37,929 nucleotides of DNA from a virus. This document shows positions 6,870 to 37,254 of this stretch, piece by piece. The stretch covers positions 1 through 37,929 of the IMG/VR virus record IMGVR_UViG_3300040801_002256; one strand, written 5' to 3'. A program made the translations under genes and the position numbers. The notes under the pieces were generated by a model, which was not told the DNA's origin, searched no databases, and saw nothing but the letters and a program-made list of their open reading frames with translations. The first letter of the stretch is position 1. Each line of letters starts with the position of its first letter.

Positions 6870-7049
6870 ATGATAAATAAATTAAAAAAAGTGATTGAGC
6901 TAGAGGGTGTCAATTATGTGACATTTAAACTCGGTTATCGTTCAGCAAATACAATTTATGCTTGGTTAAAAAATAACAAAATACCCAACACGGCAAAAGT
7001 TCGCGTTCAGGAATTTTTAACATTTTATTTTGAGGAATATGAGTTATGA
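6870..7049 (+). CDS. Small Cro-like helix-turn-helix protein, 59 aa
   Basis: The 59-residue product begins MINKLKKVIELEGVNYVTFK. Residues 13-40 (VTFKLGYRS, then TIYAWLKNNKIPN) match the Cro/CI-type pattern in which a helix, a turn and a recognition helix are followed by a KIP turn. The ATG is at 6870-6872; ACAAGG lies upstream. The TGA overlaps the ATG of the ATPase gene (ATGA). It is the first gene of the rightward operon and stands next to a dyad in its own promoter, so an early-gene regulator binding at 6821-6834 is likely. No partner repressor is visible in the window. Confidence 0.75.
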   Translation: MINKLKKVIELEGVNYVTFKLGYRSANTIYAWLKNNKIPNTAKVRVQEFLTFYFEEYEL

Positions 7050-7786
7050 GTTTATTGTCACAAGTCACAAGCGGAAAAGTAATGAAGCCAATTAATGTTT
7101 TACTTATTGGTGTTGAAGGAATTGGAAAATCAACATTTGCATCAAAAGCACCAAAACCTATTTTTGTTGGCGCTGAAGAAAATGATGAACTTGAGGTTGC
7201 GCGTTTCCCTCGTTGTGATTCTTGGCAAAACTTTATGGAATGTCTTGATGCCCTCATAAAAGAAGATCATGATTTTAAAACAGTCGTTGTTGACACAATT
7301 GATTCAATTGAAATTCTTTTGCATAAACAAATCCTTGAAAACGATAAGGCCGATTCAATGGCAAAAGCTTGTGGCGGCTATGGTGCCGGTTATGTAAAAG
7401 CCGCCAATATGATGACTGATGTTCGTAGGAAGCTTGCCAAATTGCGTGATGAAAAAGCAATGAATGTTATTATTCTTGCACACGCTAATAAAGTTAAATT
7501 TTCTGACCCTGTATCAGGGATTGACTATGACACTTATGAAATGAAGCTTGATAAGAGAAGTGCGCCATTATTTAAGGACTGGGTTTCGTGTGTTTTATTT
7601 GCGAATTATGTAAACCATAAAACCAAAACAAGTTCAGGAAAAGAAATGCTTGTAAGCGTTGGTGATAGAAAAATTTTAACTGAAAAGCGCCCTGGTCATG
7701 ACGGTAAAAATAGATTTAATTTGCCTTATGAAATTAATTTAGACTGGAATGAATTTATCGGTTATGTAAAGGATTTTTATGCTTAA
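7046..7786 (+). CDS. RecA-like phage ATPase (AAA_24; Sak4-like)
   Basis: A 246-residue P-loop ATPase: Walker A GVEGIGKST (22-30, K28), Walker B VVVDT (80-84), and later a RecA-core strand with VIILAHANKV (about 151-160). This matches the phage nucleotide-binding AAA_24 group, which includes the Sak4 single-strand annealing/recombination proteins. It lacks the N- and C-terminal extensions of bacterial RecA. It lies between a Cro-like regulator and a YqaJ exonuclease and opposite an SSB-like gene; this pairing is typical of phage single-strand annealing recombination. It overlaps both neighbouring genes, by four and eight bases. Confidence 0.87.
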   Translation: MSLLSQVTSGKVMKPINVLLIGVEGIGKSTFASKAPKPIFVGAEENDELEVARFPRCDSWQNFMECLDALIKEDHDFKTVVVDTIDSIEILLHKQILENDKADSMAKACGGYGAGYVKAANMMTDVRRKLAKLRDEKAMNVIILAHANKVKFSDPVSGIDYDTYEMKLDKRSAPLFKDWVSCVLFANYVNHKTKTSSGKEMLVSVGDRKILTEKRPGHDGKNRFNLPYEINLDWNEFIGYVKDFYA

Positions 7787-7922
7787 AATTTTTGCTAAAA
7801 GAATAAAAGAGCTTGAGATGGCAATTAGTTTGCGGCTTGATAAAAATTCGCCAACATACAAAATTATGGAAAAAACTCTTGAACTAAATAAATTATTATA
7901 TGAAAAATTTGGCGGGAAATAA
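7779..7922 (+). CDS. Hypothetical helical protein, 47 aa
   Basis: A 47-residue, largely helical and basic peptide beginning MLKIFAKRIKELEMAISLRL. The ATG (7779-7781) follows AAAGGATTTTT, a strong ribosome binding site, and overlaps the ATPase gene by eight bases. Its TAA shares a base with the ATG of the exonuclease gene (TAATG). It therefore fills the operon without a gap, which supports it as real. Family unknown; it could be an adaptor between the two recombination proteins. Confidence 0.65.
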   Translation: MLKIFAKRIKELEMAISLRLDKNSPTYKIMEKTLELNKLLYEKFGGK

Positions 7923-8797
7923 TGGAACAAAATGAAACTGAATGGCACCAATGGCGCAAACTCGGGTTGGGTGGTTCAGATTTGCCAATTATTATGGGTG
8001 ATTCACCTTATATGACCCCATATCAATTATGGCGTCAAAAAACTGGTCTTGATGAATCGGAAAATAAAACTAATTTTGTTCAGGCAAAAGGGCATGAACT
8101 TGAAGTTATTGCGCGAAATAAATATGAAATTCAGACGAACCTCGAATGGAAGCCACGCCTTGCGGTTCATAATGGTTTTGAGCATTTTCGCGCATCTCTT
8201 GATGGTTTTAATGAAAAATTAAATGCCGTTTGGGAATGCAAGTTTATTGGAAAAGATGGTTTTGAAGAAATTAAAAACGGCGCTGTCCCATGTAAGTATC
8301 GCGCACAAGTTCAATGGCAAATGTTTGTTACTGGCGCCGTTGAAAATCATTTAACCGCCATTAATGATGATCATGAAATTGTGACTACAATTGTAAAACC
8401 TGACATGGACTACATTAAAAAGATCGCATTAAAAGCGCAAGAATTTTGGAATTGTGTTCAAGAGAGAAAAGCTCCTAAAATGACTGATAAGGATAAGGTT
8501 GAAATAAGAAGTCATGAATTAAAAAACATGCTTATTATGTATGATTTAAAGGAAAGTCATTTTAAAAAAATGAAGGAAGAACTTGATGAACTTAAAAAAG
8601 AAATTTTTGAAAGAGTTCCACACACTAATTGCTATATTGATTTATTTGGTAGTCATGTCACTGTTCAAACTCAACAACGTCAAGGAACGGTTGACTGGAA
8701 AAAGGTTGTAAAAGAATATGGTATTGACCAGGATAAATTCAGAAAAAAACCAACAAAAGTAAATGTTATTAAGATAACGCGTCAAAAGGGGGGATGA
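7922..8797 (+). CDS. YqaJ/lambda-Exo-type recombination exonuclease
   Basis: 291 residues of the YqaJ family, which degrades the 5' strand of linear dsDNA to leave 3' overhangs for annealing. Visible are the N-terminal GLGGSD (15-20), KGHELE (56-61), the catalytic SLDG (D94), WECKF (E105, K107) and the YRAQVQWQM helix (126-134). A C-terminal helical arm (170-230) precedes a basic tail. It is coupled to the small gene upstream (TAATG) and overlaps the next gene by four bases. With the Sak4-like ATPase and SSB-like protein it forms an annealing-based recombination system. Confidence 0.93.
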   Translation: MEQNETEWHQWRKLGLGGSDLPIIMGDSPYMTPYQLWRQKTGLDESENKTNFVQAKGHELEVIARNKYEIQTNLEWKPRLAVHNGFEHFRASLDGFNEKLNAVWECKFIGKDGFEEIKNGAVPCKYRAQVQWQMFVTGAVENHLTAINDDHEIVTTIVKPDMDYIKKIALKAQEFWNCVQERKAPKMTDKDKVEIRSHELKNMLIMYDLKESHFKKMKEELDELKKEIFERVPHTNCYIDLFGSHVTVQTQQRQGTVDWKKVVKEYGIDQDKFRKKPTKVNVIKITRQKGG

Positions 8798-19419: not shown

Positions 19420-20013
19420 TTAACTTGTAAAAACAAATAAAACCTTAGTATGTGCTGGTTTTAATTTTTCAAAAGTGCATTCCAACGCTTCATTTCCAAG
19501 CTCAAGTAACCTATCACCAGCGCGACCAGCGCCAGCAAGAAAAGGTGTTGATAAATCAGCGGGCGCCGTTACTTGAAACCAAAAAGTCCACTCTTCATTA
19601 GTCAGCGCGTCACCAGCGCGACTCCTACCCGCTTTGAATGGAAAAAAGTCATTAACAGACACATCGAAGCCCAAATTTTGTGCAACGAGTTCAAAATACG
19701 CGCGACTTGAACCGCCAGTATTCGTTAATTTAAAAACAATTTCTTGGCGTCTTTTTTCAATACCAGCACCAAGCTCTGAGCATTCATCAGGAAGCGCAAG
19801 CGCACTTTCCCAATCAGTAAGTAATTCGCTTGTTTTTCTTGGGTCGCGCTCAACCAGCATTTGATCAAGCCTTTCTTGAACGCGCGAAAATTCAACGGCA
19901 AGACCTTCAATAAGTTTTGAAAGATTTGTATTTTCAAGCGCCCATGCTTTTCCTCTTGGAAAAAATCGGCGCAATGAATTTGCAAATTGCTCAATTACAC
20001 TAGTGGTTGCCAT
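19420..20013 (-). CDS. Mu gp48-like baseplate protein (DUF2313)
   Basis: 197 residues of the Mu gp48 (YmfQ/DUF2313) family, which ends the baseplate gene set and connects the wedge to fibres. Recognisable parts are the N-terminal helix with LRRFFPRGKAW (14-24), the helical ERLDQMLVERDPRKTSELL, WESALALPDEC, and the C-terminal ..AHTKVLFVF. The start ATG overlaps the end of the gp47-like gene by 19 bases. Length is normal for the family. Confidence 0.88.
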   Translation of the reverse strand: MATTSVIEQFANSLRRFFPRGKAWALENTNLSKLIEGLAVEFSRVQERLDQMLVERDPRKTSELLTDWESALALPDECSELGAGIEKRRQEIVFKLTNTGGSSRAYFELVAQNLGFDVSVNDFFPFKAGRSRAGDALTNEEWTFWFQVTAPADLSTPFLAGAGRAGDRLLELGNEALECTFEKLKPAHTKVLFVFTS

Positions 20014-21488
20014 GTTATTGTTCCAAGTTCAATTAATTCGCCATCGGTTGTTGGTTCAACATTTGCTGGTGTCAAACTGTTTATTGTAACAATTTCATGA
20101 TCGTCTTCACCATTTGCCCTTGAAATTGCTTCACGAATTCTTGATAAAAGCAAAACGCCGTCATGCGTTTCTGATGGTGATTTATAAGCGCCACGCGGGT
20201 TTGCATCTCTAAAAATTAAATCACGCAATTCATTTGTAGCGGCATCACGAACGGCTTGGGTGTTTGGTTTTATTTTTACCACCAAATCAACCGTTAATGG
20301 TGTTGGCGCAAATGCTGTGACCTTTGCCGTTACTGGCCTAAAGTCCCTGGCGTCTAATGTGTTTTGCATTTCTTGAACTTTTGCAATATCAGGAATGATA
20401 TCGCTTTCATTATCTTCAACGAAAGTCACTCCAACGGTTCCAGTTCCTTCGCCCTCAAAATTAGGATAAACCCATGCGCGGGTAACACCGGCAACGCTTA
20501 ATGCTTTTTGCTCATAGTCATTAACGTCACCGCCCGATGGTGGTCTTTGAATTCGCTGTAAAAGCCTTGCTCTAAAATCATCAATTGTTTCAGTGTTTTC
20601 ACCTTCAACAGTCGTTGCGACAACTTCGGCTTGTGATTGAACACCGGCAATTGAAGCAACAATTGTTAAAAATTCACCATTGTCAACATTTCCAGATTCA
20701 CCACCATTTTCGGCAACAACATCAGCAATGGCCTCAACGTCCACTTGGTCAACACCTTGTGTTGTAATTGTTATTGAAAAGCCTGTTGTGAAGTCCGTGG
20801 CATCCTCAACCGCGCCAACGTCATCATTTGTAACGGTCACAACATTTGTTGAAACCGTAACCGTTAAATCCGTTGCGGTGTCAAGAATTGCTTGTGTAGC
20901 ACTTGCCACATCGTTTGCCGTGTCGTCTTCACCAATGTCAACTTGAACCGAAGTTTTTCCAGTTAAATTTGGGTCACTTCCATTGCCATCAACGCGGTAA
21001 AAAACAACGTATTCGATTTCTGGTGAATTAATGAAAAAATAAGTTCCGGCAAGTGATTGCGCAACATCGGCAACGGTTGTAATTTCTGTTACTTCAGAAA
21101 CGCCAGTTACCGGCGCGGGAATTGTCGCCTCGGCTTGTTGGGTAAAAATTTCCCCTTGATCATTTTGCCATTCAGTGCCAGCGGGAATAATTGCGCCTTG
21201 ATCACCTAAAATTTTAATTTGTAATTCTGCTTTTTGCGCTGGCGTTGGTTCAAGACCAAAAAGTTGACCCCAAATTAAAATGGTTTCATCATCGGCTTGC
21301 GCTGTTGGTAAAAGGTTTTTAGAAATAAAATCAAGATTTCCATGTAAGACATGGGATTGACCAGCAAGAGCGCGAGAAATTGCGCCTAAAAAAGTGCGTC
21401 TTAATATTGTATTTATCCCTAAAATAGAACGTATGTCACCGCGTATGCGGTCAATTATTTGTTGAAGTGTAGGCCGTTGTAATGGCAT
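19995..21488 (-). CDS. Mu gp47-like baseplate J protein with inserted domain
   Basis: A baseplate wedge protein of the BaseplateJ family. The start is the ATG at 21486-21488 (MPLQRPTLQQII), preceded by GAGAGGGTAAAA. Typical features are the N-terminal RIRGDI..., GTEWQNDQGEIF.T (105-117), the GNVDNGEFLTI region after 266, and DDFRARLLQRIQRPPSGGDVNDYE. Between the two halves of the usual domain there is an added ~115-residue module (132-247), which explains the length of 497 residues compared with ~370 for plain Mu gp47. The same module is found in the gene at 9828. Confidence 0.9.
   Translation of the reverse strand: MPLQRPTLQQIIDRIRGDIRSILGINTILRRTFLGAISRALAGQSHVLHGNLDFISKNLLPTAQADDETILIWGQLFGLEPTPAQKAELQIKILGDQGAIIPAGTEWQNDQGEIFTQQAEATIPAPVTGVSEVTEITTVADVAQSLAGTYFFINSPEIEYVVFYRVDGNGSDPNLTGKTSVQVDIGEDDTANDVASATQAILDTATDLTVTVSTNVVTVTNDDVGAVEDATDFTTGFSITITTQGVDQVDVEAIADVVAENGGESGNVDNGEFLTIVASIAGVQSQAEVVATTVEGENTETIDDFRARLLQRIQRPPSGGDVNDYEQKALSVAGVTRAWVYPNFEGEGTGTVGVTFVEDNESDIIPDIAKVQEMQNTLDARDFRPVTAKVTAFAPTPLTVDLVVKIKPNTQAVRDAATNELRDLIFRDANPRGAYKSPSETHDGVLLLSRIREAISRANGEDDHEIVTINSLTPANVEPTTDGELIELGTITWQPLV
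20748..21095 (-). other. Inserted mobile-looking domain inside the baseplate J protein
   Basis: Codons 132-247 encode a module (TEITTVADVAQSLAGTYFF ... FSITITTQG) inserted after GTEW....Q.TIPAPVTG. Its copy at 10029-10373 shares the same order of motifs: ADV..SL, YF.I, F..VD..GS.P, V.V.I.E.D.ANDVA.A, N.VVTVTN..G.VE, DF.T.F.ITT.G. I judge about 35-40% identity by eye. A beta-rich adhesion-type domain is likely. Confidence 0.65.
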
Positions 21489-21490
21489 TT

Positions 21491-21943
21491 TTACCCTCTC
21501 TTGATTTTCTGGCCATCCCAAATGAAATCAAAACTTGTATTTTCGCCGCTTGGCTTTGTGATCTCAATTTCAAGCAAAAGTTGACCAATTTTAGGATAAG
21601 TCGCAACCACCGAAATGTCACTTGCAACACCATCTTGAATAAGCCAGTCAAGAGAGTTTTTTGCAAATCGTTGGTAGCGCGGCAAGTCACTGGTCAATTG
21701 TTTTCCAGAATCAAGTAACCACAATTTTGAACCGATTTGATCGCCGTCAAAATCAGGAAATAAATCACCCCACCAACCACGGCGTGATTTTTGTCCTTGT
21801 GGCAATTCATCAACTTCAACACGTTGATCGGTAAAAAGCGAAATAATAACAGCCGTTTCAAGTCCATCATCAGCTTTAAGATCGCCATTTTCAATTTTTA
21901 AATCAAAAATATTATTTTCGTAAAAAAGTCCTATGTCATTCAT
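21491..21943 (-). CDS. Mu gp46-like baseplate protein
   Basis: 150 residues of the gp46 family. The N-terminal half has DLKIENGDLKADDGLETAV and ISLFTDQRV; the family signature RRGWWGDLFPDFDGDQIGSKLWLLDSGK is at about 54-81. The C-terminus (TSFDFIWDGQKI) is the usual strand. It precedes gp47 with a three-base gap, as in Mu. Together with gp47 it forms the baseplate wedge. Length is typical. Confidence 0.92.
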   Translation of the reverse strand: MNDIGLFYENNIFDLKIENGDLKADDGLETAVIISLFTDQRVEVDELPQGQKSRRGWWGDLFPDFDGDQIGSKLWLLDSGKQLTSDLPRYQRFAKNSLDWLIQDGVASDISVVATYPKIGQLLLEIEITKPSGENTSFDFIWDGQKIKRG

Positions 21944-21946
21944 TTT

Positions 21947-22666
21947 TTACATACTCTCATTTGGCGCGTTTGTTGGCCCACCAGGATTATTATTTTCATT
22001 ATGAGTGTGCGTGTTGTAAATGTCTCGAATCTCTTGCATTGAACCTGTTCCATCGCTTACATTTCCACTTGTTGCCAAATCGCCAGTATGACTAATGTTT
22101 CCAGTCATGTTCATCGTTGTTGGCGCACCACCAGCGCCAGCGACATTTAAAGAACCCGCAACATTTACAACCCCAGTTAAATTAATTATTGGCGCTGTAA
22201 TATCAGCTTGTGTTGCCGCGTTTACTGTTGCATTTTCAGCTTCAACAATTGCTTCAGCGGTTTCAACTTTTACTTGCGAACCGCCAACAACTTCAATAAT
22301 ATTACCACGCTTAAAATGAATTTTGTCGCCTTCATCAGTATAAATTGCAACCTCACCTTTTGCTAAGTTTTTCAATCGAAATTGTCGGTTATCAATTGAA
22401 ACACAAATTCCATGCTCACGATTTCCAAGGGGAAATAAAATCACGCCTTCGCTGTTGTCAGGCGCAACGCTTGTCATCCCATAGTTTTGAAACCTTTCAA
22501 TATCATCAAGAATTTCACCAGCAAGAACTTGACCATTTATTTTTTGAATTCCTTGCGCGTCATTTGTAGCAAGTAAAACACAACGACCAATCAACATGGC
22601 AATTCTATTCGCCATTGGCTGTGTGTATCTTTTAATGATACGCATTAATTCGTTACTGTTCAGCAT
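21947..22666 (-). CDS. Mu gp45-like baseplate spike
   Basis: 239 residues of the gp45/gpV-type central spike. The N-terminal OB-like domain (about 30-120, including VILFPLGNREHGICVS) is followed by a repetitive beta-helix region (about 130-200; VEAENATVNAATQADITAP, VVNVAGSLNVAG) and a tip with YNTHTHNENNNPGGP. The H-x-H pair there probably holds the iron ion found at spike tips. The ATG follows AAGGAAACAAGAAA and overlaps the hub gene by 14 bases. It punctures the outer membrane during infection. Confidence 0.9.
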   Translation of the reverse strand: MLNSNELMRIIKRYTQPMANRIAMLIGRCVLLATNDAQGIQKINGQVLAGEILDDIERFQNYGMTSVAPDNSEGVILFPLGNREHGICVSIDNRQFRLKNLAKGEVAIYTDEGDKIHFKRGNIIEVVGGSQVKVETAEAIVEAENATVNAATQADITAPIINLTGVVNVAGSLNVAGAGGAPTTMNMTGNISHTGDLATSGNVSDGTGSMQEIRDIYNTHTHNENNNPGGPTNAPNESM

Positions 22667-23855
22667 TTTCTTGTTTCCTTAAAAGCGCTTTTCTTTTTGC
22701 TTGCTCAATTTGCCATCCCAAATTAGAAACAGGGTCGGCGTCTTGTTCAATAGTTTTTTTAGGTTGAAAAGCGTCTGGTCTTGTCATTTCCATAGTGCAA
22801 ATTGTTCCACTGTCACTTTTTGAAAAAGAAACCGATCTCACAAGTAAATCTTGTTTTTGTAGGCCAATAAAACCACTTGTTACTTTTACAACTTCATTTA
22901 TACGCCATAAGCGCCCATCTTGTTGAAAAAATTCTTGAACGCTTACATTTACTTTAAAAGAATTTGCCGCCCTTAGCGTGTTTTCCCAATTAGCGCGCTG
23001 TTGTGCTTTTGCCTGGTCAACATTTGTTTCTGAAATAATAACAGTCGGGCGAAAACGAGTGATTCCCTTATCATTTGCCGTGGCACTTGGTGAGCTTACA
23101 TTGGCGCCATTAAAAGTGTCAGTTCCAGGCGCTTGCCCCACAACTTTATATTCTGAAAACCGATCTTTATTGTCATAGCTTGCTGAAATTGAAAGGCAAT
23201 TTACACCTTGAACGATTTCAGTTGACGCACGAAATCGCCCTTTTCTTGTAATTCTAAGTTGACCAAAATCATTTGCAATTAAAAAAACTCCGCGTTGTTT
23301 TGCGGCGCGATCAAGAGTTTCAAAAGCGGTTTCACCTGGCTTTATTCGCCACACTGGAAAAAATTCTTTTGTTGTCGTGTTGTCCAAAACATCTTGAACC
23401 TCAATTCCAAAAGGGGCGCAAATTTCTTGGCACAATTGAGTGAGTGAAAGGCTTTTAAGTTCGCCTTGTTGTTTTGGAACGCAATCAACAAGATCGCCTG
23501 TTAAATCACGGCCAGAAATTGAAAGGTCACGACCGTCGGCGCTTGCCGTTGCTGAAAGGGTGTCAACATAACCAACAAAAATTTTATCCTGGCCAATAAA
23601 CATTTGAATATCGTCACCTGGCTTTATTGGCCATCGCGAACCGTCTTCGCGAAATCTATCATGCAAGGAAATTGAAAAATTCCCTGAAAGTGAATCTAAT
23701 CGGCGGGTGATTGAAAAAGACTTCCAACCATCATATTGAACTTTATTGATAAAGACTTTTGCAATGTCGGGATTTACTGAACCTTGTGGTTTTGATTTTT
23801 TGCGGTTATTTCCAAAAGATTGTTTTGTGATTGTGTCAATTGGATTTTCAGGCAT
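22653..23855 (-). CDS. Mu gpP/gp44-like baseplate hub protein
   Basis: 400 residues of the Mu gpP (gp44) hub family, the homologue of T4 gp27 and P2 gpD. Typical elements: the N-terminal VFINKVQYDGWKSFSITRRLDSLSGNF (about 30-56), GRDLTGDLVDC (139-149), WRIKPGETAFETLDRAAKQRG (about 193-213) and LRITRKGRF. It carries the spike and opens towards the tail tube. It overlaps the gpN-like gene by eight bases and starts after GAGGTTTTGA. Length matches the family. Confidence 0.92.
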   Translation of the reverse strand: MPENPIDTITKQSFGNNRKKSKPQGSVNPDIAKVFINKVQYDGWKSFSITRRLDSLSGNFSISLHDRFREDGSRWPIKPGDDIQMFIGQDKIFVGYVDTLSATASADGRDLSISGRDLTGDLVDCVPKQQGELKSLSLTQLCQEICAPFGIEVQDVLDNTTTKEFFPVWRIKPGETAFETLDRAAKQRGVFLIANDFGQLRITRKGRFRASTEIVQGVNCLSISASYDNKDRFSEYKVVGQAPGTDTFNGANVSSPSATANDKGITRFRPTVIISETNVDQAKAQQRANWENTLRAANSFKVNVSVQEFFQQDGRLWRINEVVKVTSGFIGLQKQDLLVRSVSFSKSDSGTICTMEMTRPDAFQPKKTIEQDADPVSNLGWQIEQAKRKALLRKQENAEQ

Positions 23856-25044
23856 TCAAAACCTCAAGTTCGGTTCCCCCTACAATAAAGCCAGGGTGAC
23901 GAATTGAATTTCTATCAATAATTTCTTGCTCTCTTTCAATATCTTCAAATAAATCATAAGCAAGAATAATTGAATTTGTAGTGTTTTGAGGAACAAACGT
24001 AATAACATTTGAAAGTTCATCGTCAACACTTGGGACAGCGGCAACCAATGCGGCGGCAAGATCATTCATATTTTGGAAAAAATTAATGTCTTCGGCCGTG
24101 TCGGCTTGTCTGTTAATTAATTCTTTTAAATTTTGTTGTTCAGTAATTGCTGCTTCGGTTGAAAAAAAGTTTCTATCAATCGTTTCTTCGGTCGCCAAAA
24201 TTACGGCCATATTTTTTATGTAATTATTAAAGTTTTGCTTATTAAGTCTTTCGCGTTCTCTTGATTCAGTTTCAAAAGGCGCCAATTCCTCTTGGTCATC
24301 ACCAAAGTTAAAAAGCGTTGAAAACGACGCACTTGCATCATCGGCATTTGTGGCGACCGCTGAAAGGTCTTGAATTGCACTTAAAAGATTTTCAGCAAGC
24401 AAGCTTGGTTGTTGAACTAATTCAAGCGCGTCAGCTTTTAAGTTTCTTATTTTAAAAGTTAAATCGGTAATTGTTTGCGTCGCTTCAGGAATAGCGCTTG
24501 TCGCAGCGTCAAAAGCATCAGCGGCTTGTTCAACCAATGCCGTCGCTGAATCAACAACAAAACCAGGTTGCCCAAGAACAGAAAAGCCATTTTCAAAATT
24601 TTCTTGAGCGCTTACAAGTGACTGTTCAGCAAAATCCAAAAGCGTTTGCGCTCTATCCTCTTCAATTGAAGGATAAATATTTGAACCGGCTTCAGTAAAA
24701 CTAATTGTAAAACGAACGATTCGACCCTCTTGGGTGTCTTCAGTAAATGAATAACCGTCAACATTAACATCAATCTGGCCCAAATAAGGGTGAATAAGTT
24801 CACCAGCACCACGCTGTTCAAGCGCTGAAATCATTCGATCGCGTTGCTGAAAATAGTCATCGCCAATTAAATGAATGGAGAGTGAAAAAGATCGCGCTTT
24901 TCGTCCTAAGTCTTCACTAAAAGGCGTATCACGGTCAACAAATTCATGAACCTGAGTTCTTCGACCACCAGTTGATGAATGATTTTCAATAAAAAATGGA
25001 ACACCTCTATAAGACCCTGGTAATAAATTATCTTTCCATGACAT
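23848..25044 (-). CDS. Mu gpN-like tail/DNA circularization protein
   Basis: 398 residues. The N-terminal ~100 residues form the DNA_circ_N domain (WKDNLLPGSYRGVPFFIE, THEFVDRDTPF-type text, FSLSIHLIGDDYFQQRD), and the rest is long and helical. In Mu the protein is a tail or hub component linked to ejected DNA circularization. It lies between tape measure and hub, its normal place. The start ATG follows GGAATTTAATT. No unusual features. Confidence 0.9.
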   Translation of the reverse strand: MSWKDNLLPGSYRGVPFFIENHSSTGGRRTQVHEFVDRDTPFSEDLGRKARSFSLSIHLIGDDYFQQRDRMISALEQRGAGELIHPYLGQIDVNVDGYSFTEDTQEGRIVRFTISFTEAGSNIYPSIEEDRAQTLLDFAEQSLVSAQENFENGFSVLGQPGFVVDSATALVEQAADAFDAATSAIPEATQTITDLTFKIRNLKADALELVQQPSLLAENLLSAIQDLSAVATNADDASASFSTLFNFGDDQEELAPFETESRERERLNKQNFNNYIKNMAVILATEETIDRNFFSTEAAITEQQNLKELINRQADTAEDINFFQNMNDLAAALVAAVPSVDDELSNVITFVPQNTTNSIILAYDLFEDIEREQEIIDRNSIRHPGFIVGGTELEVLNA

Positions 25045-25046
25045 AA

Positions 25047-26783
25047 TTAAATTCCTTGCATTCCGGCAAAAGTCGCACTGAAATCATCAACGCCCGAAGT
25101 TCTTACTTGTGCGCCTTGAGGTAAATTTGAAAAATCAACGGCAACATTGGCGTTATTTGTTTGCGTAATATTACCCGCCGCCGCGCCAGCATTTACCGCG
25201 CCAGTGTTTACATTTCCAGTCGGTGCCGCTGGCGAATCATCGCCAACGCCAGGAATAAAATCAAAAAATGTTGAAATCGCCGAACCAATACCACCAGCGG
25301 AAAATGATTTTTTTAATTCATCCCGCTTGTAAATAAGTCTTGCAATAGCAGCAACAAGGGCGCCAATAGCAAGAACAGGCGCCGAAATAACACCAGCAAT
25401 TGCCGCAAAAACAGCTTTTACCGCGACCATCGCCGGCGCCAAAACAAGCATTGCGCTTTTTACCGCCAAAATTCCTTGCGCCATAAAACCAAAAGCGGCA
25501 AGCGCTGGCCCTAGAGCGGCCGCAAGTCCAGCGGCGGCAATTATTATTGTCTGAAATTCTGGTGAAAGACCTGAAAATTTATCAAGTAAGTCGCCCACTA
25601 ATCCTAAAAGTTTTGCAAAAATTGGCGCAACCTTATCACCAATCACGCGCATTGTTTTACCAAGTCTGTTTTGAAACATTTGAATTGTGGCATTTAATGT
25701 TTTTGTTTGTTGATCAAATTCTTTGTTTAATGCCGTATTTTCATCAAAAGCTTTTCCGGCCATACCCATGGATTTTGTTAAAACATCAGCGCTTTTCGCC
25801 ATCGTTGGAATGATTGCGTTTACTCGTTCGCCAGTAAGGCCGAATTCACTTAAAATCGTCGTGGTTTTCACGCCATTATCTGAAAGTTCACCAAGATTTG
25901 AAATGAAGTCTTGAAATACAGCGCCCGCGTCCTCTTCAAAAGCTTTTTTAAGTTCCTCTTGAGTTTTACCAGTCACATGCTGTAAAACCGCCATGCTTTT
26001 ACCGCCGTTATCAATAGCATCACTTATTTTCATAAATGTTTTACCAATAACAGTCCCACCGGCTTCAGCTTGAATCCCAAGTGATTTCATCGCTGCCGAA
26101 ATTCCTAATGTGGTTTTACTTCCAAGTTCAAACTGAGCGGTTGCCTGGCCAACCCTAGTCGCCATAGTTAAAATTTCCGATTCACTTGCCGCGGAATTAT
26201 TTCCAAGCTCAACAAGTGTTGCCGCAAATTTATCAACCTTACCAATACCATCGCCGGTAACAGTTAAAAGTCTTGCAATTGCTTTTGCGCCCTCTTCACC
26301 AGCAACATCAGACGCTTTTTCTAATTTTGCAAAAGTTTCAGTAAAAACCTCGATATTATCAGCGCCTTTTACACCAAGTTGACCAGCGGCGCCCGCAATT
26401 TCCAAAAGGTTTTCAGTCGCAACCGGAATACGTCCGGCCATACCATCAATAATTTTTGAGGTTTCATCAAATTCAAGGCCAGTCGTTTTTACAACATCAG
26501 TCACACCCTGTTCAAATTTTGCAAATTCACGAATTGCAAAACCGCCAACAGCGGCAATGGGCAATGTCAACTTGGTTGACAAATCTTTCCCAAGACTTAT
26601 TGCACTTTTACCAATTTTATCAAGTGATTCTCTTGAAGCGCGTGATTGTCTTTCAAGTTTTTTAAAAGCCGCCGTACTGTCACGAACGACCCGATTCATT
26701 TTAGGGAATTTTTTAGTGACGCCTTGAAGTGTTGATGAAAGTTTATCAACGGCCTTTAGATTGAATACTATGTCTTTTGCCAT
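25047..26783 (-). CDS. Tail tape measure protein
   Basis: About 578 residues from the ATG at 26781-26783 (MAKDIVFNLKAVDKLSST), preceded by GAGG. An earlier TTG is possible but lacks spacing. The N-terminal half matches TP901/TAMP-type tape measure (TLPIAAVGGFAIREFAKFEQG, VGQATAQFELGSKTTLGISAAMKSLGIQAE...), and residues ~405-490 are a hydrophobic segment (AAAGLAAALGPALAAFGFM, VLAIGALVAAIARLI) expected to enter the membrane during ejection. Relatively short, predicting a short tail: at about 1.5 angstrom per residue it would be roughly 85-90 nm. It follows the chaperone frameshift pair, as usual. Confidence 0.9.
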   Translation of the reverse strand: MAKDIVFNLKAVDKLSSTLQGVTKKFPKMNRVVRDSTAAFKKLERQSRASRESLDKIGKSAISLGKDLSTKLTLPIAAVGGFAIREFAKFEQGVTDVVKTTGLEFDETSKIIDGMAGRIPVATENLLEIAGAAGQLGVKGADNIEVFTETFAKLEKASDVAGEEGAKAIARLLTVTGDGIGKVDKFAATLVELGNNSAASESEILTMATRVGQATAQFELGSKTTLGISAAMKSLGIQAEAGGTVIGKTFMKISDAIDNGGKSMAVLQHVTGKTQEELKKAFEEDAGAVFQDFISNLGELSDNGVKTTTILSEFGLTGERVNAIIPTMAKSADVLTKSMGMAGKAFDENTALNKEFDQQTKTLNATIQMFQNRLGKTMRVIGDKVAPIFAKLLGLVGDLLDKFSGLSPEFQTIIIAAAGLAAALGPALAAFGFMAQGILAVKSAMLVLAPAMVAVKAVFAAIAGVISAPVLAIGALVAAIARLIYKRDELKKSFSAGGIGSAISTFFDFIPGVGDDSPAAPTGNVNTGAVNAGAAAGNITQTNNANVAVDFSNLPQGAQVRTSGVDDFSATFAGMQGI

Positions 26784-26925
26784 CCTCAACAACCTCGTTT
26801 GCTGAATCGACCCACCACAAAAGTTCGTCGGCCGTCATTTTCAACATTTCGTTTCGAGTGAAGCCGAAAAACTTGGCAACCGACCCGACGACTAATTTTA
26901 TTCGCCTTGGGAACCGCCGATAAAG
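26746..26925 (-). CDS. gpE/gp42-like chaperone extension made by -1 frameshift
   Basis: The -1 frame of the chaperone gene is open from the slippery site to TGA at 26746-26748. It encodes 59 residues (LYRRFPRRIKLVVG..., then VAKFFGFTRNEMLKMTADEL and WWVDSAN). The FF.....E...M...EL..W pattern is that of the P2 gpE / Mu gp42 group. No ATG lies before the conserved part, so it can be made only as a fusion with the gp41-like protein (145 residues in total). It overlaps the tape measure start by 38 bases. The fusion would bind the tape measure during tail assembly. Confidence 0.75.
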   Translation of the reverse strand, partial: LYRRFPRRIKLVVGSVAKFFGFTRNEMLKMTADELLWWVDSANEVVEDGKRHSIQSKGR

Positions 26926-27182
26926 TTTCCCACCAATTCAATGATTTTCATGCTATCACTTGGGTGAAGTGATTTAATTAAAATCTCACCACCTTCATGC
27001 TCACAAATTCGACCAGCGATTTCAATGAATTGTCTGGTTTTCATTTTACCAGCTTCAAACTCAAGTTCCAAAATGTCTTCAGTGCGCATTGCGCGAAATT
27101 CAATTTCAGAAACTTGTTCCTCACCCCATTTAACAGGGTAATGTAATTTAATTACTTTTTTTTCTTTTTCCCAACCCAACAT
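26898..27182 (-). CDS. Tail assembly chaperone (Mu gp41/TAC-like)
   Basis: 94 residues of the small chaperone family that binds the tape measure (G in lambda, E in P2, gp41 in Mu). Sequence features: KLHYPVKWGEEQVSEIEFRAMRTEDIL, then a helical FEAGKMKTRQFIEIAGRICEHEGG and the C-terminal IIELVGNFIGGS. The position between tube and tape measure is diagnostic. Its last codons contain the heptamer G GGA AAC in the right phase for -1 slippage. The ATG follows AAAGGAAGCCACAA. Confidence 0.85.
   Translation of the reverse strand: MLGWEKEKKVIKLHYPVKWGEEQVSEIEFRAMRTEDILELEFEAGKMKTRQFIEIAGRICEHEGGEILIKSLHPSDSMKIIELVGNFIGGSQGE
26925..26931 (-). promoter_or_regulatory. Programmed -1 frameshift site GGGAAAC
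   Basis: On the minus strand the heptamer GGGAAAC is phased G|GGA|AAC over Val-Gly-Asn codons 84-86 of the chaperone gene, which is the X-XXY-YYZ layout. Lambda uses GGGAAAG at the same place in gpG/gpGT. The slip joins the gp41-like frame to the open -1 frame. A downstream stem is not evident, and lambda does not need one. Confidence 0.7.
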
Positions 27183-27206
27183 TTGTGGCTTCCTTTTGTT
27201 GTGTGG

Positions 27207-27572
27207 TTATCTAATTTCTTCGCCTGAAAGTCCTTCAAATCTTGCTTCAATTTCGCCCTCTTCACTTCCAACGGCACCTTCACTCGCATAAACGGCATTT
27301 CTTAAAACGATAACTTTTCCATTTGCAAGTTCAAGTGTCACTGTTACGTCAGCGGCTTCTTGAAGCGATAAAAGATCAAGGTTTCCACGGTCAGTAATTG
27401 CACCCTCAATAAAGGGAACTTGTGGCATGGCCTTGTAACCATGAACTTGATCTGAACCAACAACCATTTCTTTCATTTCAGGGTTGATTCTATAACTGAA
27501 CGCGCCTTTTGCGAAAAATTGCGTTCCGTCGATTTTCAGTCTTATAATTCCACCAATTCTTTCAGCGGCCAT
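27207..27572 (-). CDS. Mu gpM-like tail tube protein
   Basis: 121 residues of the Tail_tube family (Mu gpM): GGIIRLKIDGTQFFAKGAFSYRINP at the start, VPFIEGAITDRGNLDLLSLQE in the middle, then VTLELANGKVIVLRNAVY and a C-terminal strand EIEARFEG. Inner tail tube through which DNA passes. The ATG follows AAGGGGGAATAA, and it lies directly after the sheath gene as in Mu. Length is typical. Confidence 0.93.
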   Translation of the reverse strand: MAAERIGGIIRLKIDGTQFFAKGAFSYRINPEMKEMVVGSDQVHGYKAMPQVPFIEGAITDRGNLDLLSLQEAADVTVTLELANGKVIVLRNAVYASEGAVGSEEGEIEARFEGLSGEEIR

Positions 27573-27582
27573 TTATTCCCCC

Positions 27583-29052
27583 TTAGAGTAAAAATTGAAT
27601 TTGCGTTGCGGTAACTCTTAACTGATTTACCAAATCAGGCGGTAGTAAGAAGTCAAGACGGTTCGGGTCTGTTGAATTTCTTTCAACAATCAGATCATTT
27701 TTAAATTGCTCACCACCTTCAACAAGTCCTAGCTCTTCCCATCCACGGAAAATTGAAACTGCTTCAGCCTTTGCCGCAAGTGGTGTCAAGATCGGTTGAC
27801 CAGGGGCAATTCTTGCCCCATCACTTGCCAATTTATGACGTGGAAATTTTCTTAAAAATGTATTTCTAAAATCAAATCTTAAATAACTTAAAGTTAAAAG
27901 CGTATTAAGATCAAGATAACTTGTGTCAGGCGCTCCAAAAGCATTTGTTTTGTAAGTTGTAATTAGTCTTTCAATTCTTACAATCCCACCATCATCAACA
28001 AAGCTTGTAGCAATACCATTTGATAAAAGTTGATTTCTTTCACTGTTTGTAAAACGCTCACTTGATTTTGGCGCAAGAATTTCTGGAATCTCAAGAGTTT
28101 GAAAAGGTCTTGCTGGGTCAATTTGACCATTTAAAGCAACAACACCACAAACCGAAGCGGCTTTTTCCCATGGTGACATAGGCCCATTTGCTTCAAGAAC
28201 TATTGTAAATTGAGAGTTTCTGGCATTTCCAAGTCCAGTAAGATCAGAAAAAGTCCCTCTTTTACCAGTAATTGCATAACCATCATTTTGTCTTAAAGGC
28301 CCAAAACGATCATTAAGCTCACCTTCAAGTTCAGTCAAGTTTGATGCGTCAGTATAAGGGTTTGCAATAATGTTGTATTGAGTTTCATCAAGAACAGCAA
28401 TTGCACTTGCAATATCAGGATTTGCAACACCGCCAGTCATGTCAGTGATTGTTACACCAACACCAGCGGGCAATTCCTCGCCATCAAAATAATTTACTCT
28501 AATATCAATTTCATTTCCGGCTTCACCGCCGTTTTTTGCTGTTAAATCAACCTCGTTTGCATTAACGCCATTTACCGCCGCCGTTACTGGTAAATCACTT
28601 TCAGCGGCAAGGTCAGCTTGAACAGCACTTGCAATATCGTCAGCGCTGTCACCACTTGCAACCGCAACACGAACGCGACGACCGCCAATCATAACAGAAA
28701 CAACACCGGCTTCAGTCGCGGGGCCAGTAAAAGCAAGTTTTCCTTCAGCGGCAACCGCTGAACCATCATCATCAAGAGGTAATGCAAAAACTTGATTAAC
28801 TTTATTTGCATCAAGAAATTTTTCAAGCATGTGAGCAAGCATTGAACCCGCACCAAAATATTGTTTTGCTTGATCAACTTGCGTAATTTGTTGAAGCTCT
28901 AAAGCTGGCTTTGTTCCAGCGGCAAGCTTTTGACCCAAAACAAGAACTTTATACTCTTGTAACGATGGGCCTTGAACCGCGCGTGAATTGTCGAATTCAA
29001 CATAAACAAACGGCACCCTTTGATTGTTTGGTATTTGATTAAAAGAAACCAT
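27583..29052 (-). CDS. Mu gpL-like tail sheath protein
   Basis: 489 residues, similar to Mu gpL (495). N-terminal strand PFVYVEFDNSRAVQGP, a ~100-residue outer domain around residues 105-205 (GGRRVRVAVASGDSADDIASA), the core LDETQYNIIANPYTDAS, and the C-terminal TTYKTNAFGAPDTSYLDLNTLLTL with RHKLASDG. The C-terminal strands handshake between subunits during contraction. It overlaps the small DUF2635 gene (TAATG). This protein proves a contractile, myovirus-type tail. Confidence 0.95.
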   Translation of the reverse strand: MVSFNQIPNNQRVPFVYVEFDNSRAVQGPSLQEYKVLVLGQKLAAGTKPALELQQITQVDQAKQYFGAGSMLAHMLEKFLDANKVNQVFALPLDDDGSAVAAEGKLAFTGPATEAGVVSVMIGGRRVRVAVASGDSADDIASAVQADLAAESDLPVTAAVNGVNANEVDLTAKNGGEAGNEIDIRVNYFDGEELPAGVGVTITDMTGGVANPDIASAIAVLDETQYNIIANPYTDASNLTELEGELNDRFGPLRQNDGYAITGKRGTFSDLTGLGNARNSQFTIVLEANGPMSPWEKAASVCGVVALNGQIDPARPFQTLEIPEILAPKSSERFTNSERNQLLSNGIATSFVDDGGIVRIERLITTYKTNAFGAPDTSYLDLNTLLTLSYLRFDFRNTFLRKFPRHKLASDGARIAPGQPILTPLAAKAEAVSIFRGWEELGLVEGGEQFKNDLIVERNSTDPNRLDFLLPPDLVNQLRVTATQIQFLL

Positions 29053-34341: not shown

Positions 34342-37254
34342 TCACCAAAAATCTGATTTTTTGCGAGGTTTTCGCGCTTTTTTTACAGTTTTAGTTTCAT
34401 TTTTACCCACTTCAATAGGTTGTGCAACCTGTTTTTCAACTTCACGCCAATCGCCATCGGAAAACCTATCAATACCAATCATGCTTGCCGCAGCGCGATT
34501 GTAAACCATCAAGTCAAGAGGTTCATTTCTTTCGCGAATTTTTATCCATTCATATTTGCGATAACCCTTTATGAATTTAATTTGAATCTCTTCAGCGGTA
34601 AGACCTTTAAAAAAGTCCTCGCCGTATTGTGGAAAGTGACAATAACCAACAGGAAAAGATTCGTTACCAGTGGGTTTTAATTGTTTAAGCCAGCCATAAA
34701 TTTCAGATTTAATATGTGATGAACCAACAGTCCATAATTTTAATGCACGACGCATTTTAGTTCCAGAATAACTTAAATCAACATCTTTTGGTTGCGAATA
34801 AATAAGTCTTAAAGTGTCCGAACCTTTTATGGCCCTCACTCGGTTTGGTGGGAATTGGCGAACAAAATTATAAACTGTTTGCGTGTTGTAACCAGAATCA
34901 ATCAGCATTAATTGAATTCCCATTTGCACCTGGCCCTTTTTCCAGACATTAGATAAAAGCCCACTTACTTGTTGCCAACACCAATCTTGCGTATTTGAGG
35001 TGTCGCCAACAAAAGTACGGTAGTCAATTGACCAAGAATTTTTATCCTCGCCCCAACCTTTTATTTCAACTTCAAGTCGATCTCTTTGAACATCAACCGC
35101 CGCCGTCAAAAATTTGACACCATCAGGAATTGTATTGATTTCATACTGCTCACGGTTTTCATAAAGTCGTCGCCATTCAGGCGCTTCGCCCTTGTCTTTC
35201 CATGTTTCACCAAGAATTGTGTTTACAAAAGTTTTTAATTTTGATCTGTCTTTTCTTTTGTTGGCGTCAATCCATTCTTCAGCAATTTCTTGCCAAGAAA
35301 GCCAGCCCATGGGTGAATAAAGTGAATTTAAATGATAACCAGCAATTTTTGATTCGGCCTCTGCTATCCATTTTCCACGCGCCAACATAAATGACTTGTT
35401 ATGTTCTTTTATTTCTTCACCGCAATGAGCGCAAAAATAAGCGGCGGTTTCTGGTTTGTCCTTATCCCATTTTAAATTAGTAAATTCTAATTTTTGATAT
35501 TCATTACAATGTGGACAAGGAACGTGATAATAGCGCTTATCACTTATTTCAAATTGTCTGGCAATTCTTGAAGTTGATTCATCAACCGGTGTTGAAACCA
35601 AAAAAAATTTTTTCCTTGAAAAAGTGTTCGCACGTTTTTTTGCAAGGTTTACAGGGTCACCCTCACCGCCCGAGTCACCTGGAAAAGCGTCAACCTCATC
35701 AAAAAAAACTCTCCTAATGGGAAGTGATCTTAAATTTGTTGGAGAGTTTGCACCAACGATGGCCAGATAACCACCAATAAATTGTTTTAGGTTTATGGTG
35801 TTCCCTGAGTCGCGCGACTTTTTTTGCATTACTTTTTTTCTTAAAGATGGCGTTTCCTCAAGTAATGGGTCAATTCTTATTTTTGAATTCTTTTTTACAA
35901 TCCCATCTGTTGGCAAAACCATCATTGTCGGTGCTGGTGAATGATCTATGATGTAGCCAAGCCAGTTATTGCCGCATTCAGTATTGTGAGTAGCAATAAA
36001 AGAATTTGAACATAAATAAAGATGACTTTCAGAATCAACAGAAATGCATTGCGTTGGAATTGAATTGATCTTTTCAACATTTACAATGCGTCTTTTTTTA
36101 GTTTCTGAAATTCTACCCTCTTGTTTTTGTTTTTCGTATTTTCTTTTTAAATTAAAAACCCTAATCCCAAAAACTGTAAACGAAATACGCCACTTAGTTT
36201 TTGGTTCACTTTTTCTTTCAAATTTTTCACGATCTTTAAAATGCCCGCTATTTGAAATGGCCTCATAAACTGACGCTTTAATTCCAAGCGACATTAAAAG
36301 CTCATAAACACCTTTAAAAAGAGGTTCATCAACCGTTGAAAATTCACAACGGTTATTACTTATTGAACCGTCAGAATCCATAAGACCGCGCAAAAGCTCA
36401 AGCCTTTGCTTATAGCTTGCGCGTAAATATTCTTGAGGAATTGATTTTTGTTTTAAGTTACCGCTTAACCTTAATTCTGTGCAAAAACCATCAAAAAGAC
36501 ATTCGACACAATTTTGAGAATCATCACGAACACGAACTTTTCTATTTATTTTTTCTAATATTTCAGCAGAGTCATCTTTATTTAAATAACAAATGCCAGT
36601 GTGTCGATTGCCATCACCAAGCCAAATACCAAAATGATAAGGGTCAATAGGCAGTTTTTTCTTTTTTGTTTTTATTGGTTTTGAAGCTTCAATTGCATAT
36701 CTGTTTCTGGTTTTTTTGCGTAATACTTTAAATGTTTTGGCAATTTCTGAGGTTTTTAATGTAACAAGTTTTCTGTGTTCATATTTTTTTTCATCCCAAA
36801 CAGTCCAGCGATGGTCAGCATCACATTTTATTTTTGTCCCATCATTAAATGTAATTTCAAAGCAATCATGATTTTCAAATATTTCTGATTTAAAAGTGAC
36901 GTTGCAAATATTTCCGTTTTCATCAAAAATCTTGTCGCCAATTTTAATTTTACCCATAGTTGACCAACCATCAACCGTTGGAATTTTTTCATCAAGCGCC
37001 AATGCAAAACCAAGCTGCGCACCTTTCATAACAACAACCTCTTGTGTTTCGTCATGATCGGAAAGCTTGTCCATGATTTCTTTTAAATATGGCGTTCGAC
37101 TTGTTCGCCATTTACCAGGTTCAGCACTTGATTTTGTTGTTAAAACCCTGTTTTGATCTGACCATTCAGAAACGGTAAGGCGTTTTTGTGGTTTTATTCC
37201 CAACAGTAATGGTGTTAAAAATGATTGCTTAATATCGGCAAGGCTATTCGTCAT
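34342..37254 (-). CDS. Large terminase subunit (GpA family) with intein
   Basis: 970 residues as translated; removing residues 84-424 leaves 629, close to lambda gpA (641). The N-extein ends KGAQLGF and the C-extein begins TECGNN: together the P-loop KGAQLGFTE. Further ATPase motifs: Walker B VFFDEVDA (D519/E520) and motif III VSTP (553-556). A Cys4 zinc finger lies at CPHC (580-583) and CAHC (608-611). The C-terminal nuclease domain has AAVDVQRDRLEVEI and LIDSGYNTQTV with catalytic-type aspartates. The ATG overlaps the small terminase gene by 11 bases. It cuts and pumps DNA into the head. Confidence 0.95.
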   Translation of the reverse strand: MTNSLADIKQSFLTPLLLGIKPQKRLTVSEWSDQNRVLTTKSSAEPGKWRTSRTPYLKEIMDKLSDHDETQEVVVMKGAQLGFALALDEKIPTVDGWSTMGKIKIGDKIFDENGNICNVTFKSEIFENHDCFEITFNDGTKIKCDADHRWTVWDEKKYEHRKLVTLKTSEIAKTFKVLRKKTRNRYAIEASKPIKTKKKKLPIDPYHFGIWLGDGNRHTGICYLNKDDSAEILEKINRKVRVRDDSQNCVECLFDGFCTELRLSGNLKQKSIPQEYLRASYKQRLELLRGLMDSDGSISNNRCEFSTVDEPLFKGVYELLMSLGIKASVYEAISNSGHFKDREKFERKSEPKTKWRISFTVFGIRVFNLKRKYEKQKQEGRISETKKRRIVNVEKINSIPTQCISVDSESHLYLCSNSFIATHNTECGNNWLGYIIDHSPAPTMMVLPTDGIVKKNSKIRIDPLLEETPSLRKKVMQKKSRDSGNTINLKQFIGGYLAIVGANSPTNLRSLPIRRVFFDEVDAFPGDSGGEGDPVNLAKKRANTFSRKKFFLVSTPVDESTSRIARQFEISDKRYYHVPCPHCNEYQKLEFTNLKWDKDKPETAAYFCAHCGEEIKEHNKSFMLARGKWIAEAESKIAGYHLNSLYSPMGWLSWQEIAEEWIDANKRKDRSKLKTFVNTILGETWKDKGEAPEWRRLYENREQYEINTIPDGVKFLTAAVDVQRDRLEVEIKGWGEDKNSWSIDYRTFVGDTSNTQDWCWQQVSGLLSNVWKKGQVQMGIQLMLIDSGYNTQTVYNFVRQFPPNRVRAIKGSDTLRLIYSQPKDVDLSYSGTKMRRALKLWTVGSSHIKSEIYGWLKQLKPTGNESFPVGYCHFPQYGEDFFKGLTAEEIQIKFIKGYRKYEWIKIRERNEPLDLMVYNRAAASMIGIDRFSDGDWREVEKQVAQPIEVGKNETKTVKKARKPRKKSDFW
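35983..37005 (-). mobile_element. Class 3 intein with LAGLIDADG homing endonuclease
   Basis: A 341-residue intein occupies residues 84-424 of the terminase ORF. It starts Ala (ALALDEKIPTVDGW), not Cys or Ser. It carries the class 3 W-C-T set: W150 in block B (DADHRW), C403 in block F (TQCISVDSESHLYLC), and T423 before the terminal N424 (ATHN). The +1 residue is T425. The endonuclease motifs are FGIWLGDG (208-215, D214) and LLRGLMDSDG (287-296, D295). Both domains look intact, so splicing and homing are likely. The insertion point is the middle of the terminase P-loop. Confidence 0.9.

Follow-up and report, generated by a model that had tools for sequence, protein, structure and literature searches.

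Class 3 inteins are defined by a first position that lacks a nucleophile and by a triplet of Trp at B:12, Cys at F:4 and Thr at G:5 (PMC3196547, PMC5050341). In mycobacteriophages, the inteins TerL1-a and TerL1-b lie in Walker A of the large terminase (Kelley et al. 2016, PMC5050341); the TerL1-a site falls between the invariant Lys and the nucleophilic Thr, just before the Thr, and in that study inteins turned up in Terminase_1, Terminase_6 and a single terminase-like family of mycobacteriophages and in no other (PMC5050341). A class 3 intein also occupies the GK/T P-loop (here and below, a slash marks the insertion point) of the terminase of Synechococcus phage B23 (MN695335, L082), a large cyanophage (Kyanoviridae) whose host gene is non-GpA. 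In bacteria, DnaBi1 of M. smegmatis (6bs8) and MchDnaB1 of M. chimaera (6rix) are endonuclease-free mini-inteins of the replicative helicase.

Here we analyzed a virus record of 37,929 bases (IMG/VR record IMGVR_UViG_3300040801_002256), referred to as the window, whose large terminase gene is interrupted in its P-loop. With a probability that we put at roughly 96%, the P-loop of this GpA-type phage terminase holds an intact class 3 intein equipped with a LAGLIDADG homing endonuclease; for this intein we infer splicing and homing. Like the mycobacteriophage TerL1 inteins it sits in a phage large terminase, but theirs belongs to Terminase_1 instead of GpA (PMC5050341). It has P-loop insertion, W67, Cys48 and the class 3 fold in common with DnaBi1 and MchDnaB1, unlike which it carries an endonuclease and lies outside a helicase. 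Its best match among phage records is the B23 intein, at 39% identity over the full length. The features of the locus are collected in Table 1.

Table 1. Positions of the terminase gene and its intein in the window; catalytic roles are predicted
Feature	Position	Strand	Basis or remark
terL (GpA-type large terminase) ORF, including intein	34342..37254	(-)	970 aa; ORF call and Pfam
N-extein, terminase residues 1-83, ending KGAQLGF	37006..37254	(-)	alignment with 78 uninterrupted relatives
Class 3 intein, A84-N424 of ORF, 341 aa, with LAGLIDADG homing endonuclease	35983..37005	(-)	
C48 of intein (C131 of ORF), matching DnaBi1 redox partner Cys48	36862..36864	(-)	aligned to 6bs8 residue 48
W67 of intein (W150 of ORF), block B Trp of triplet	36805..36807	(-)	invariant in 169
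First LAGLIDADG motif FGIWLGDG, D131 of intein	36610..36633	(-)	
Second LAGLIDADG motif LRGLMDSDG, D210/D212 of intein	36367..36393	(-)	Pfam LAGLIDADG_3
C320 of intein (C403 of ORF), block F nucleophile (predicted)	36046..36048	(-)	invariant in 169
T339-H340-N341 (T422-H423-N424): triplet Thr, penultimate His, terminal Asn	35983..35991	(-)	
C-extein from T425 (TECGNN), remaining ATPase and nuclease domain	34342..35982	(-)	Pfam and alignment of relatives

A GpA-type terminase gene with an interrupted P-loop

The host gene is a GpA (lambda-type) large terminase, as seen from its domains and from its terS and portal neighbors. Pfam places GpA_ATPase (PF05876, 2.7e-89) and GpA_nuclease (PF20454, 2e-85) at the ends of the 970-residue ORF, with LAGLIDADG endonuclease models in the middle. 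Upstream lies the terminase small subunit gene terS (phrog_57) and downstream a lambda-type portal (PF05136) and a protease/capsid fusion; the ORF is therefore a tailed-phage packaging gene. Elsewhere in the window, positions 19995-29052 hold Mu-like baseplate genes (Baseplate_J, GpP-like and Gp45) and a tail sheath, which makes the phage a myovirus with a contractile tail, combined with packaging genes of the lambda type. Unlike most of the window, the genes for an AAA_24 ATPase and a YqaJ/RecE-like exonuclease (7046-8797) lie on the plus strand. Among annotated phages, the terminase exteins are closest to terminases of Wolbachia phage WO (~49% identity), and one Wolbachia phage WO record has a terminase gene with an insertion sequence.

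The P-loop is split as KGAQLGF/TECGNN, with A84-N424 inserted between F83 and T425, and the 341-residue insert that the initial annotation had placed at 35983-37005 between these two motifs agrees in reading frame, coordinates and length. That annotation had also proposed an alignment with GpA terminases lacking the insert. Among 80 related GpA loci from IMG/VR, 78 span the site, and in every one of them the P-loop runs uninterrupted through exactly this point (for example, VFMKGAQVGG/TEAGNNW), so the insert boundaries are exact. On sequence comparison, the interruption of the terminase P-loop is far beyond chance. The reading of the segment as a normal domain of this terminase subfamily, and no intein at all, has next to no chance of being right: the segment is missing from all 78 relatives that span the site, and it matches intein structures from end to end.

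Joining the exteins gives a predicted terminase of 629 aa, in which T425 is both the P-loop Thr and the predicted +1 nucleophile. G+C content is 32% in the insert and 38% in the exteins, and at third positions 20% and 29%, respectively (Fisher p = 0.003); the lower G+C of the insert is in keeping with a separate history.

Splicing residues, endonuclease and predicted fold

The intein begins with Ala, as the initial annotation had it, and so has no Ser, Thr or Cys nucleophile at position 1; Ala is also found there in 107 of 169 related inteins, which were picked for alignment by their similarity to this one. The W-C-T triplet is W67, C320 and T339 in intein numbering, or W150, C403 and T422 in ORF numbering. 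The first two residues had been named correctly, whereas T423 had been given for the third: the Thr is T422, and residue 423 is the penultimate His. None of the 169 aligned inteins departs from H65, W67, C320, T339 or N341, and after the terminal Asn comes Thr (91) or Ser (75) in nearly all; here it is T425. Class 3 DnaB inteins (6rix, 6bs8 and 6riy) are the matches among PDB sequences, at ~1e-17 (phmmer); the Pfam model Intein_splicing is matched only below threshold (0.0029; 17.9 bits versus a cutoff of 35.8).

The endonuclease is recognized by LAGLIDADG_3 over intein residues 200-251 (7.4e-10) and also by Hom_end. Both LAGLIDADG aspartates are kept, D131 in WLGDG and D212 in LMDSDG, as had been claimed. 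AlphaFold2, given the intein with 12 flanking residues per side, returned a model with a mean pLDDT of 91.9 and a pTM of 0.90. With VIA-align, this model superimposes on 6bs8, the class 3 DnaB intein of M. smegmatis (Z 21.2, 1.4 A, 127 residues), and on the bifunctional intein PI-SceI (Z 28.4, 3.3 A, 324 residues); its structural matches also include I-DmoI. The model thus supports a splicing domain of the hedgehog/intein fold into which a LAGLIDADG endonuclease is inserted. Alignment, structure model and relatives together uphold the earlier assignment of a class 3 intein with a homing endonuclease at the P-loop.

Two residues, E6 and A338, deviate from the family consensus (position 338 is Pro in 152 of the 169 aligned inteins), as might be expected of an intein that is degenerating and has lost its splicing or homing activity. 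We regard such decay as very unlikely, because all splicing residues and both endonuclease aspartates are retained, the frame is open across 341 codons and the rest of the terminase is intact.

For the intact intein, class 3 inteins whose splicing has been tested suggest the following pathway. The block F Cys320 would attack the F83-A84 bond, the N-extein would then be handed to the +1 Thr, T425, and Asn341 would cyclize, joining the terminase halves and restoring the loop KGAQLGFTE. Before splicing, the ATP-binding loop is split, and the precursor should not drive packaging; PMC6195587 cites a RadA intein in a P-loop, and from that analogy we infer that the precursor could not use ATP normally. 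The element would spread by homing, its endonuclease cutting the allele that lacks the intein.

A widespread family at the GpA site

By tblastn, 758 of 50,697 phage records contain a match to the insert, and in 522 of these the match covers 80% or more of the insert. When viral contigs were scanned with the intein as a single sequence, no relatives came back, but an alignment-based scan did find them, and such scans give at least ~600 candidates in viral contigs and at least ~600 in GTDB genomes. Judged by their exteins, 39 of the 171 intein loci that we gathered are in GpA-like terminases, and each of these is in the P-loop directly before the Thr or Ser (for example, KGAQVGA/TE); most of the others occupy GK/T or GK/S P-loops, be it of DnaB, of a different terminase or of some other protein. 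The GpA-like terminase inteins (for example, L093-L102, L106-L108, L111 and L173-L184) come from phages and prophages and share with the window intein its insertion point, W-C-T triplet and LAGLIDADG endonuclease. The best identity to a GpA-site intein among the loci gathered is 45% (L179).

GpA-site inteins, including the one described here, are strongly clustered on a 100-row tree, with 6 label changes versus 31 in shuffles. Many of them start with Pro, whereas the window intein starts with Ala and forms a long, loosely placed branch; no starred set contains it. Among the papers searched, none names inteins in GpA terminases. The remarkable status suggested by the initial annotation does not hold up, as dozens of GpA-like terminases have such an intein at the identical site and P-loop terminase inteins are already published (PMC5050341). 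The intein is real, intact-looking and of a well-known, widespread kind of mobile element.

Cys48 and a possible control of packaging

In M. smegmatis DnaBi1, Cys48 forms a disulfide with the catalytic Cys118 under H2O2 and splicing stops, an inhibition also seen in vivo (PMC6195587). The initial annotation had named redox through C403 as a possible control point, a fair hypothesis that the cysteine pair makes specific and testable. With this published precedent, and with Cys at both matching positions of the window intein (position 48 and block F), one could picture the intein as a redox switch in addition to a mobile element: oxidation would pair Cys320 with Cys48, splicing would halt and DNA packaging would wait. 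We nonetheless consider this unlikely. Cys48 is common to 84% of the family (142 of the 169 aligned inteins; among the 341 columns it ranks 68th by weighted conservation) and is thus not specific to this phage. Replacing Cys48 of DnaBi1 abolishes splicing (PMC6195587), so the residue may be kept for structure. With Cys48 in 142 of 169 inteins and a structural reason equally open, the pair is weak evidence of regulation; moreover, the window intein contains further cysteines. A splicing-controlled packaging switch is possible, and it would not be special to this phage.

The DnaBi1 paper terms Cys48 non-conserved (PMC6195587), as against its presence in 142 of the 169 inteins aligned here, a class 3 sample chosen by similarity to the window intein. 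Nine of the inteins (L197, L206, L210, L221, L224, L229, L231, L236 and L251) have Ala or Gly in its place; most of these nine come from genomes of Bacillota, with insertion sites such as IPKKNGK/SELAAA. The idea that Cys48 goes with aerobic hosts was set aside, as other anaerobes keep the Cys and the loss in Bacillota could be a single event.

Overall, this locus is a well-formed addition to a family already known, and it shows that class 3 P-loop inteins are commonly housed in GpA terminases and not just in the Terminase_1 and Terminase_6 families. It is quite improbable, in our estimate, that these inteins form a deep, widespread GpA-terminase lineage in which the shared pair of Cys48 and the block F Cys lets host redox gate phage packaging. 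If redox gating were true across the family, phage packaging would be tied to the state of the host.
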